NCBI GenBank assembly: GCA_009783695.1
Contig: WRCY01000020.1
Coordinates: 1 to 36,532 of the forward strand
DNA from: Oscillospiraceae bacterium
GTDB taxonomy: Bacteria > Bacillota > Clostridia > Oscillospirales > Ruminococcaceae
Length of the DNA: 36,532 nucleotides
Direction: 5' to 3'
Position 1 is the stretch's first letter, and each line of letters starts with the position of its first letter. Below are positions 1,173-5,705 of this stretch, piece after piece. Below the pieces are notes generated by a model. The model did no database searches, had not been told where the DNA came from, and saw only the letters and a program-made list of their open reading frames with translations. The position numbers and the translations under genes were made by a program.

Positions 1173-1204
1173 CACGTTATCATTAATAATGAGGTGATAA
1201 CGTG
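1173..1204 (+). promoter_or_regulatory. Inverted repeat over RBS and GTG start
   Basis: Perfect 10-bp arms CACGTTATCA (1173-1182) and TGATAACGTG (1195-1204) with a 12-nt loop. The right arm contains the GTG start codon (1202-1204) and the loop ends in the Shine-Dalgarno GAGG. It could act as an operator for the encoded XRE protein or as an RNA hairpin that hides the start codon. Confidence 0.6.
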
Positions 1205-1432
1205 AAAGATAAATATTCTGAAAGTTATAGAAAACTTGGGTTAAACATTAATTATTACAGAAAAGATAGAGGAATGTCACAAGAGATATTATCAGAATTA
1301 ATAAGTATTGCAGAGCCATCGCATTTAAGTAAAATCGAAAACGGACATTCCGCACCCTCGCTCGATGTTGTTTTCGGAATCGCAAAGGCGCTGGACATAC
1401 CTGTTTACAAACTGTTTGAGTTTAGAGAATAG
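1202..1432 (+). CDS. XRE-family transcriptional regulator
   Basis: A 76-aa single-domain helix-turn-helix protein (Cro/C1 type): LGLNINYYRKDRGMSQEILSE forms helices 1-2, EPSHLSKIENG the recognition helix and turn, then PSLDVVFGIAKALDIPVYKLFEF. It starts with GTG at 1202, 7 nt after GAGG; start and binding site are embedded in a perfect inverted repeat. It is divergent from the lipoprotein gene at 703-1050, separated by an operator-like repeat, so autoregulation and control of that gene are likely. A terminator hairpin follows at 1442. There is no sensor domain. Confidence 0.85.
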   Translation: MKDKYSESYRKLGLNINYYRKDRGMSQEILSELISIAEPSHLSKIENGHSAPSLDVVFGIAKALDIPVYKLFEFRE

Positions 1433-1441
1433 CAAAGTTTA

Positions 1442-1467
1442 AGGGGCGGTAAATCCGCCCCTGTTTT
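1442..1467 (+). terminator. Terminator between XRE gene and recR
   Basis: Stem AGGGGCGG (1442-1449) / CCGCCCCT (1455-1462), 5-nt loop, then GTTTT. It terminates the XRE transcript and may also serve recR from the other side. Confidence 0.75.
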
Positions 1468-2066
1468 CATATCAGATTCCTGTTCTCCATCGCCCTCACC
1501 AGCGTCACATCGTCCGCGAACTCCAAACTCGCCCCCACCGGCAGCCCGTACGCCAGCCGCGAAACTTTTATCCCCATCGGCTTAATCAGGCGGCAAATGT
1601 AGCTCGCGGTCGCCTCGCCCTCAACCGTCGGATTCGTCGCCATGATTACCTCAGCCACATCGCCGGAAAGCCGCGCCATCAGTTCCTTCATGCGAATCTG
1701 CTCAGGGCCCGTGCCGTCCATGGGCGACAGCAGCCCGTGCAGCACGTGATAGCTCCCCTCAAAGCCGCCCGCGCGCTCGATTGCGGTCACGTCCCGCGGC
1801 GACTCCACCACGCAAATCACGTCGTTCATTCGCCGTTCGTCCGTACAAATCACGCAGGTTTCCTTTTCGGTGAAGTTCTGACAAACGCTGCAGCAGCGGA
1901 CGCTTTCCCGCGCCGTAATTAGCGTGTTCGCAAAGTGCCCGACATCGTCTGTGGTCATGTTGAGCACGTGATAGGCGAGCCTCTGCGCGGTTTTCATGCC
2001 GATTCCGGGCAGCTTCGCGAACTGCTCGGCGGCGAGTATCAAAGGGAGCGGGGTGTATTCAGCCAT
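1467..2066 (-). CDS. recR: Recombination mediator protein RecR
   Basis: A 199-aa full-length RecR. With RecF and RecO it loads RecA on SSB-coated single-stranded gaps. Features in order: helix-hairpin-helix KLPGIGMKTAQRLA (residues 18-31), a four-cysteine zinc finger with CSVC and CVIC near 59-73, and a Toprim domain from VICVVESPRDVTAIERAG through ATNPTVEGEATASYI, then SRLAYGLPVGASLEFAD. The ATG directly follows the stop codon of the small XRE gene (2067-2273), and its ribosome binding site AAGGAAG lies inside the last codons of that gene, so translation is probably coupled. recR is normally next to ybaB; here a regulatory module of about 1 kb separates them. Its first 10 codons are duplicated at 2421-2450. 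Confidence 0.97.
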   Translation of the reverse strand: MAEYTPLPLILAAEQFAKLPGIGMKTAQRLAYHVLNMTTDDVGHFANTLITARESVRCCSVCQNFTEKETCVICTDERRMNDVICVVESPRDVTAIERAGGFEGSYHVLHGLLSPMDGTGPEQIRMKELMARLSGDVAEVIMATNPTVEGEATASYICRLIKPMGIKVSRLAYGLPVGASLEFADDVTLVRAMENRNLI

Positions 2067-2273
2067 TTATTCTTCCTTTCGTCCCAGCAAATAATCAGCA
2101 GATATATTAAAAAAATCCGCAAGGGCGATAATAGAATCAAAAGAAGGCTTTGATTCATTAATTTCATAACTTTGATATGAGCGTTCAGATACATTAATTG
2201 CTTTTGCAGCCTGTTTCTGAGTTACTTTTTTTGCTTTTCTTATAGATTTTAAATGTTCACCGAAATTATTCAT
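2067..2273 (-). CDS. XRE repressor, copy 1
   Basis: A 68-aa Cro/C1-type helix-turn-helix protein starting MNNFGEHLKSIRKAKKVTQK, recognition region NVSERSYQSYE, then PSFDSIIALADFFNISADYLLG. The ATG at 2273 follows GGAG by 6 nt; upstream in-frame codons lack a binding site. It is a paralog of the 2451-2657 gene (about two thirds identical by hand count, with the last 12 residues the same), but the recognition helix differs. It is divergent from a truncated target gene at 2367. Two half-site-related inverted repeats (ACGAGGTA type) lie in the promoter between them. Its stop codon touches the recR ATG, so its expression probably sets recR translation. Confidence 0.85.
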   Translation of the reverse strand: MNNFGEHLKSIRKAKKVTQKQAAKAINVSERSYQSYEINESKPSFDSIIALADFFNISADYLLGRKEE

Positions 2274-2290
2274 AAAAATCTCCAAAAGTA

Positions 2291-2342
2291 TTGACACGTG
2301 GTATATCTCGTGTTATAATGAAAATACGAGGTATGCCTCGTA
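2291..2342 (+). promoter_or_regulatory. Promoter with two operators, module 1
   Basis: -35 TTGACA (2291-2296), 17-nt spacer, -10 TATAAT (2314-2319). Operator O1a CACGTGGTATATCTCGTG (2295-2312) fills the spacer. Operator O1b TACGAGGTATGCCTCGTA (2325-2342) covers the start of transcription, with 8 of 9 positions symmetric. Both share the ACGAGGTA half-site. The likely binder is the XRE protein at 2067-2273. Confidence 0.75.
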
Positions 2343-2366
2343 ATATTTAATAAGGAGAATTTGATA

Positions 2367-2690
2367 ATGTACGACATACTCGATTCGTTTTTCACCAAAT
2401 ACGTCAACGAAACCAGCGATTATCAAAGGCAGCGGGGTGTATTCAGCCATTTATTCTTCCTTTCGTCCCAGCAAATAATCAGCAGATATATCAAAAAAAT
2501 CCGCAAGGGCGATAATATTTTCAAACGAGGGTTTCGCTTTATTGTTCTCATATCTTTGATAAACACATTCATCTACGCCTATTCCCTCAGCGACTTCTTT
2601 CTGAGTCAGGCTTTTAGATTTTCTTATATTTCTTATATGCTCTGCAAAGTTTATCATAAAAATCTCCAAAAAGCATTGACAATACTTTAA
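2367..2690 (+). pseudogene. Truncated copy of the 81-aa target gene
   Basis: ATG at 2367 with AAGGAG 9 nt upstream. The first codons (MYDILDSFFTKYVNETSDYQ) match the intact gene at 2752, then the sequence crosses the duplication junction near 2419 and reads antisense through the recR fragment and the second XRE gene until a stop at 2690. The tail has no sign of selection as protein. The promoter and ribosome binding site look functional, so a 108-aa chimeric peptide could still be made. Confidence 0.75.
2451..2657 (-). CDS. XRE repressor, copy 2
   Basis: A 68-aa Cro/C1-type helix-turn-helix protein starting MINFAEHIRNIRKSKSLTQK, recognition region GVDECVYQRYE, then PSFENIIALADFFDISADYLLG. 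The start at 2657 follows GGAG by 6 nt. It is paralogous to 2067-2273 with a different recognition helix, and its divergent promoter carries a different operator (ACAATACT half-site instead of ACGAGGTA). A remnant of recR (first 10 codons) follows its stop codon. It is divergent from the intact 81-aa gene at 2752 and is its probable repressor. Confidence 0.85.
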   Translation of the reverse strand: MINFAEHIRNIRKSKSLTQKEVAEGIGVDECVYQRYENNKAKPSFENIIALADFFDISADYLLGRKEE

Positions 2691-2730
2691 AGTATTGTTA
2701 TAATATAATTATACTACTTTTTAGTATTGT
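2676..2730 (+). promoter_or_regulatory. Promoter with two operators, module 2
   Basis: -35 TTGACA (2676-2681), 17-nt spacer, -10 TATAAT (2699-2704). Operator O2a ACAATACTTTAAAGTATTGT (2679-2698) is a perfect 20-bp palindrome lying between the two boxes. A weaker related site (2711-2730, ending AGTATTGT) lies downstream. The positions relative to the promoter match module 1, but the sequences are unrelated to the ACGAGGTA sites there. Confidence 0.8.
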
Positions 2731-2751
2731 TTTTGAAAGGGGAATAATAAA

Positions 2752-2997
2752 ATGTACGACATACTCGATTCGTTTTTCACCAAATACGTCAACAAAACGA
2801 ATGTAAATCAAGAATTAAAGCTTCATGCAGAAGAGCTTTGGGAAGAGCTTATGAAAAAATTTAATGAAGAAGAAACCGCGCTTCTCATCAGGTACGCCGA
2901 CGCTCATAATGAGTTCAACAACCGCTGCTCTGTCGAGAATTTCAAGCAGGGCTTCTGGATTGGCTGCAGGTTCATGCAGGAGATGACCGAGTTTTAG
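2752..2997 (+). CDS. Small helical protein, target of XRE repressor
   Basis: An 81-aa protein I do not recognise with confidence; it resembles short all-helical proteins of unknown function seen beside XRE genes in Ruminococcaceae. It begins MYDILDSFFTKYVNKT, then an amphipathic acidic helix LKLHAEELWEELMKKFNEEE, and ends with NRCSVENFKQGFWIGCRFMQEM. There is no signal peptide or membrane segment. GAAAGGGG lies 11-14 nt before the ATG. It is expressed from a strong promoter with two operators and is divergent from its likely repressor (2451-2657). Antitoxin, toxin or anti-repressor are all possible; nothing decides between them. Confidence 0.7.
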   Translation: MYDILDSFFTKYVNKTNVNQELKLHAEELWEELMKKFNEEETALLIRYADAHNEFNNRCSVENFKQGFWIGCRFMQEMTEF

Positions 2998-5570: not shown

Positions 5571-5705
5571 TTCCGAACCCTGCTTGCAGCCGCAGGCTGA
5601 ACCGCAACACAAGCCGCTTACCGCTTAATGCTGCTCGGTTCCCCGCCTGACATGGTTCGCAGGGCGGCCTTGCGCGGGGCTTGCGGCTGCAAGCAGGATT
5701 CGGAA
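5571..5705. repeat. Large imperfect palindrome
   Basis: Arms of 27 nt (5571-5597 and 5679-5705) match as inverted repeats at 25 of 27 positions, with core CCTGCTTGCAGCCGC. The 81-nt interior holds a further stem CCCCGC/GCGGGG. It lies between the Nudix gene and the 52-aa gene and encodes nothing convincing. It may be an inactive mobile remnant, or a transcript-end structure for the Nudix gene read on minus. It is not related to the TATAATCAATTAA family. Confidence 0.65.

Follow-up and report, generated by a model that had tools for sequence, protein, structure and literature searches.

How a repressor and its operator can change together is a standing puzzle, as altering just one of the two partners breaks the switch. 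Swapping both as one cassette solves it, a solution known mainly from phage immunity regions. According to the available text on CTXphi, small and very different rstR repressor alleles occupy one place and each represses its own target promoter, which leads to heteroimmunity; strains that carry several different rstR genes, and copies in tandem, are described as well (PMC7326730). The accessible sections on the Gifsy prophages report immunity regions that are exchanged or homogenised by recombination, and repressors with different operators (PMC3121763). Repressor and stoperator motifs diverge together in the Cluster A mycobacteriophages, as an excerpt of the relevant study states (PMC6550527), and many XRE paralogues within one genus are presented in the main text on the Caulobacter XRE radiation (PMC10688885).

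Based on a computational analysis, we propose that a comparable cassette exchange has taken place at a chromosomal locus of an Oscillospiraceae bacterium. The window, that is the whole stretch of 36,532 nucleotides analysed, is contig 20 of a genome of 2.23 Mb in 97 contigs (G000). Between recR and ybaB two tandem copies are found at 2032-2426 and 2416-2811, and repeat search and sliding identity bear out the near-identical flanks reported in an earlier note on this DNA: 2032-2287 and 2416-2671 are 80% identical over 256 nt (spacing 384), 2352-2426 and 2737-2811 are 84% identical over 75 nt (spacing 385). Outward from recR, each unit consists of the recR 5′ end, an XRE tail, an XRE DNA-binding half, operators with a promoter and the start of a divergent target. 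The recR gene (1467..2066, minus strand, an open reading frame) is present in 66 of the 71 genomes of the genus, and its start codon directly follows the stop codon of XRE-A (2067-2069); this repressor, which had been called coupled to recR, does adjoin it. Codon comparison divides XRE-A into a tail (2067..2132, minus strand), whose last 22 codons including the stop are common to XRE-B, and a DNA-binding half, core A (2133..2273, minus strand; HTH_3, 7.8e-15), with the recognition region VSERSYQSYE. The promoter facing the target of copy A (TTGACA-17-TATAAT, 2291..2319, plus strand) is predicted by consensus match only; putative operator A1 lies in its spacer (2296..2311, from the sequence) and putative operator A2 after the -10 (2326..2341, from the genome site search), strand not being applicable to either. 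What follows is a DUF6809 stub of about 16 codons (2367..2414, plus strand; open reading frame and codon comparison), all that copy A retains of its target, which had rightly been called truncated. Near the common word ATCAA the stub meets a repeated recR 5′ end, which by codon comparison covers some 12 codons (2416..2450, minus strand).

Copy B repeats this layout. The XRE-B tail (2451..2516, minus strand) and DNA-binding half, core B (2517..2657, minus strand; HTH_3, 1.1e-15; recognition region VDECVYQRYE), were again delimited by codon comparison, and both XREs pass the Cro/C1-type HTH model (XRE, PF01381) with 55.1 and 57.9 bits against a cut-off of 23. A second consensus-matched promoter (TTGACA-17-TATAAT, 2676..2704, plus strand) carries putative operator B1, a perfect 20-nt palindrome (2679..2698, genome site search), and is followed by putative operator B2 after the -10 (2711..2730, from the sequence), again with no strand. 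The operator places are thus the same in both copies, as had been noticed: the 17-nt TTGACA/TATAAT spacer and the stretch after the -10. The intact target is an 81-aa DUF6809 gene (PF20648; 2752..2997, plus strand; Pfam 2.5e-10, 41.5 bits, cut-off 27). Copy against copy, the recR start has 3 differences in 36 nt, and the target start is identical over 42 nt and then has 2 differences in 6 nt; a common target start does exist, and it spans 14 to 16 codons rather than the 17 claimed.

Three further features of the region were recorded. The frame of the DUF6809 stub continues to 2687 as part of a 109-aa open reading frame (2361-2690, plus strand) that runs antisense to XRE-B, so the copy A promoter could yield antisense RNA to XRE-B. 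An XRE gene of a different kind adjoins recR at 1202-1432 (plus strand) and has a counterpart on the same side of recR in the relative G012 (L087 495-809). Further along, a bacterial small SRP RNA (5587-5686, minus strand; Rfam RF00169, 59.4 bits) accounts for an inverted repeat at 5571-5705.

The boundary between the constant and the exchanged parts is visible at silent sites. Over the 22 tail codons XRE-A and XRE-B differ at 1 nt and at 0/22 third positions, and over the 47 codons of the DNA-binding half they differ at 49 nt, 22 amino acids and 24/47 third positions (Fisher p = 7.7e-6 for a split point chosen with the sequence in view; p = 0.0017 for an automatic split). Among codons of unchanged residues, 9/25 differ in the DNA-binding half against 0/21 in the tail (p = 0.002). 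Codon counts were preferred here, as global-alignment identities with end gaps free understate unrelated halves; the split motif of that alignment comparison sits 9 codons late in the window XREs. The cores had been described as completely different, which is true of the operators and not of the DNA-binding halves: with 25/47 residues identical, these are clearly homologous. Recombination of the core appears to fit the window better than duplication followed by drift. The latter, which had been held insufficient, is rejected for the window by the silent sites and may hold for some other arrays.

In the model that we propose and consider probable, the window contains, arranged head to tail, two specificity alleles of a single resident chromosomal module that were most likely brought together by unequal recombination between A and B. 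The module would be a small XRE repressor with a divergent DUF6809 gene. Judging from this anatomy, the XRE protein would act as a repressor that binds two palindromes, one within the -35/-10 spacer and the other immediately downstream of the -10, closing the DUF6809 promoter. The XRE tail with its 3′ flank and the first 14-16 DUF6809 codons would serve as constant anchors, between which the core, i.e. the DNA-binding half with its operators, would be exchanged as one unit, so that protein and site change together. The A and B alleles would then have recombined unequally, from DUF6809 codon 16 to recR codon 12, at the common word ATCAA. Copy A would have kept its repressor and operators, lost its target and come to lie directly upstream of recR, and copy B would have stayed complete. 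The structure, the silent boundary, the recurrence, the tie of operators to helices and the privacy of the operators can be read off the sequence; repression, the route of exchange and the sequence of events are what we infer. A single crossover between strains is favoured over duplication then conversion because one event suffices and because a tandem in another species, G012:C217, carries a foreign DUF6809 stub. Of the earlier proposal, the exchange of specificity cassettes stands, in line with the silent boundary, the tandem in a second species, a single-copy swap and a linkage of operators to recognition helices; its single strain-to-strain crossover stays conjectural because neither window allele was found alone.

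Is the window an isolated case? Tandem XRE arrays are common: 11, comprising 13 neighbouring or same-array pairs, were found among the loci examined, in G000 (8), G012 (1) and G062 (2). In all 13 pairs the tail DNA ranks no lower than the 96th percentile among 1653 pairs, and a DUF6809 stub separates the units in four of the seven arrays read base by base (window, C59, C1:25k and G012:C217). A core-tail silent contrast at one-sided p < 0.05 is seen in 6/13 tandem pairs, of which the window and G012:C217 survive Bonferroni correction, and in 2/20 cross-locus pairs, one after correction. The G012:C217 tandem is the closest parallel to the window: 72/74 nt of the 3′ flank and tail are identical, the cores are unrelated, the target start has 2 differences in 48 nt and the silent contrast reaches p = 1.3e-5. 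Its single-copy orthologue, G000:C61, carries only the core that adjoins the intact target. Past nt 47 the stub of G012:C217 matches this G000 orthologue and differs from its own intact copy at 10 informative sites, so two DUF6809 alleles meet in this array; near the stub's end four sites (93-98) match its own intact copy again. At C1:25k two quite different HTH halves have about 80 nt of 3′ flank in common. The orthologous single-copy swap at C1:129k/G012:C185 shows third-position differences at 4/25 tail and 31/48 core codons, and the core of G012:C185 most resembles the one that G000 carries at a different locus, C22. In two orthologous pairs the tail has diverged more than the core (core 7/47 against tail 13/25 in C61/G012:C217; 2/48 against 6/21 in C9:41k/G012:C171), a pattern that would fit constraint as well as transfer.

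The abundance of arrays also suits a different history, in which the module was duplicated in tandem inside a single genome and another allele or module then converted one of the two cores: the cassette exchange would be the same, only in two steps and with no crossover between strains. In some arrays the differences are indeed spread equally over the two halves, as expected of plain duplicates (G062:C1:225k, C1:27k, C1:129k 6390/6676). For the window, however, the conversion tracts would need one end inside the tail and the other close to the target start, and the DUF6809 stub of G012:C217 likewise comes from another allele; we regard this history as unlikely, if worth keeping in view. Two side observations belong with the arrays. 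At L178 603-1079 (G062:C1) the differences between tandem XRE genes cluster in the recognition helix (VAIDVGESLYQR vs EGTKIAERIIIR) with little silent contrast, which looks like a specificity change by mutation rather than exchange. At L263 and L264 (G000 C1:54k and C41) XRE genes stand in tandem pairs whose tails are alike and whose DNA-binding halves differ, and no DUF6809 gene was found beside them.

The operators were analysed across the family. A TTGACA-16/18-TATAAT-like promoter faces away from 44 of the 50 XRE genes scanned, and spacers were analysed for 41 of the 50, nine being dropped (six without a promoter, two non-family, one using another's promoter). Perfect 6/6 palindrome arms occur in 10/41 spacers, where shuffles lead one to expect 0.5, and words in the spacers recur downstream of the -10 (6.66 nt against 4.64; 0/100 shuffles). 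Spacer similarity tracks helices 2-3 of the XRE protein (rho 0.21; 0/2000 permutations, and likewise when the tail is controlled for), and no such relation is seen with its tail (rho 0.02, 684/2000 permutations); the helix-operator correlation is modest, some of the close pairs are orthologues, and there are misfits, for example a helix identity of 0.75 with a spacer identity of 0.12. At G023:C37, a different locus with its own tail and DUF6809, the core B helix ECVYQRYE again accompanies the half-site ACAATAC. Within G000, spacers at least 70% alike are found in only 1/406 unit pairs; operator B1 is the sole genome site within 3 mismatches, and operator A2 has no other genome site within 2 mismatches, its own reverse complement aside. 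As the operators are almost all private, the sister switches look insulated from one another. Avoidance of cross-talk among about 25 sister modules is our guess at the selective reason.

Operators that nearly all differ between sister modules might also have arisen after an old duplication, had selection diversified the DNA-binding half together with the operators and purifying selection preserved the ends, and by eye the amino-acid changes are densest in the recognition region. Selection at the protein level alone nevertheless fails as the cause, since silent sites are unchanged in the tail and changed in the core, a contrast that amino-acid selection does not yield, and we consider this origin very unlikely. 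That assembly joined two metagenome strain alleles into a false tandem is the least credible reading: the genome, in 97 contigs, resembles a metagenome bin in its estimated completeness and contamination, the relatives G012 and G062 are MAGs and the alleles have long identical flanks in common, but such flanks would produce a graph branch instead of a tandem, no long common word lies at the junction (DUF6809 codon 16 to recR codon 12), which must come from reads, and the same topology recurs in another genome (G012).

Returning to the exchange of resident alleles, we compared the ybaB-recR interval among relatives, as the earlier note had suggested. Thirty recR loci, one of them the window's own, were examined in collections with one genome per species. 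Single modules were found at this site in G023 and G062, 2 of the 29 other genomes, with other cores and other DUF6809s; the DUF6809 gene of G023 contains an in-frame stop. At the recR loci of the 29 other genomes, no single copy of core A or of core B was found. G012 has no module there and keeps a scar before a deletion, the last codons only of an XRE tail (L087 1693-1740, G012:C114). Since this apparently empty site retains an XRE tail, recent insertion of a module at a naive ybaB-recR site is not supported. By eye, no such scar was detected in the ybaB-recR intervals of G085, G065 and G017, and an XRE tail search across the clade loci returned this one clear scar only.

The modules belong to a large family. 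DUF6809 is present in 38/71 genomes of the genus, and G000 has 26 DUF6809 genes at E <= 0.001, of which 25 are divergent from a small XRE gene; the exception, by position, is on contig 11. Counting pieces and stubs, DUF6809 frames are paired with XRE in 35/35 cases in G000, G012, G023 and G062, against 2/94 in the loci of other genomes (loci by position, L125 on) and 2/28 among the other first-look loci with four clade rows excluded, figures obtained with an XRE profile trained on the clade, so that other regulator kinds elsewhere could be missed. In G085, a close relative, there are two DUF6809 genes, neither of them with an XRE of this type, and up to 38 DUF6809 genes per genome occur in G077, G011 and G002, nearly all without a neighbouring XRE of the clade kind. 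G012 was matched to Oscillospiraceae MAG Pal332_bin19 and G062 to Oscillospiraceae MAG Th196P3bin54, Th196 being a sample of the termite Termes hospes in the available text of PMC7024585. About ten module loci are common to G000 and its relatives by their flanking DNA, which argues that the modules are chromosomal residents.

The target protein itself gives few clues. Considered as the possible toxin of a toxin-antitoxin module, the window DUF6809 had no match in PHROGs or NCBIfam and one insignificant match in PADLOC (0.026). Its fold model is weak (pLDDT 72, pTM 0.41) and had no Foldseek match in the PDB; the best PDB match of a sequence profile was 6.8e-4, with no stretch passing alone. Searches of phages and of plasmids gave no match to DUF6809, and among 18 pattern matches in viral_contigs there were 0 relatives. 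A literature search returned no paper for 'DUF6809', and none of the listed titles and abstract starts reported an XRE-DUF6809 module. A role for DUF6809 as an antirepressor binding the XRE tail was rejected, the co-variation of the two being weak: rho 0.19 in G000 (28/1000 permutations), partial rho 0.15 (75/1000), and 95/1000 permutations over 38 modules. Nor does DUF6809 relatedness predict the XRE DNA-binding half among the G000 modules (238/1000 permutations). At the orthologous loci L071/L180 and L083/L261 the middle of DUF6809 diverges more than its first and last residues.

What are the implications of these modules? We advance tentatively, as a possibility short of an even chance, that they form a resident non-phage system with about 25 loci per genome, whose cassettes lie between fixed anchors and recombine among strains and species. 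Tandem arrays might then be snapshots of exchange, and loop-out between direct repeats could resolve them to either specificity. Dozens of natural short repressor/site pairs, including tandems and orthologous loci with different cores, are available in one small clade of gut bacteria, and the specificity code of small XREs and the reason for about 25 insulated DUF6809 copies become directly testable.

How does the locus compare with the known systems? The likeness to phage immunity regions drawn in the earlier note extends to the apparent joint exchange of DNA-binding part and operator between constant flanks and not to a prophage setting or phage relatives of DUF6809: the module's neighbours are recR, ybaB and dnaX. 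The window XREs themselves match phage repressor PHROGs, and their best NCBIfam score is to the RstR model NF041951 (66.8 and 67.8 bits), below its cut-off of 80. As that cut-off is missed and the module lies beside housekeeping genes, we do not claim membership in the CTXphi rstR or Gifsy systems. The CTXphi likeness consists of divergent small repressor alleles at one place and tandem copies; CTXphi, however, is a whole filamentous prophage with rstA as target, whereas the module of the window has two genes, one of them the target DUF6809, and such modules sit at conserved chromosomal loci. The Gifsy regions, in the accessible sections, resemble the window in exchange by recombination and in repressors with different operators, and differ in being prophage-borne and larger and in having a separate antirepressor, a part for which the DUF6809-tail partial rho of only 0.15 (75/1000) speaks little. 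The main text on the Caulobacter XREs makes no mention of tandem arrays, and those XREs are not paired with DUF6809 (PMC10688885). Finally, in the Cluster A repressors, as far as the excerpt describes them, it is the C-terminal part that is more variable and correlates with immunity, whereas the window shows variation in the DNA-binding half and a constant tail.
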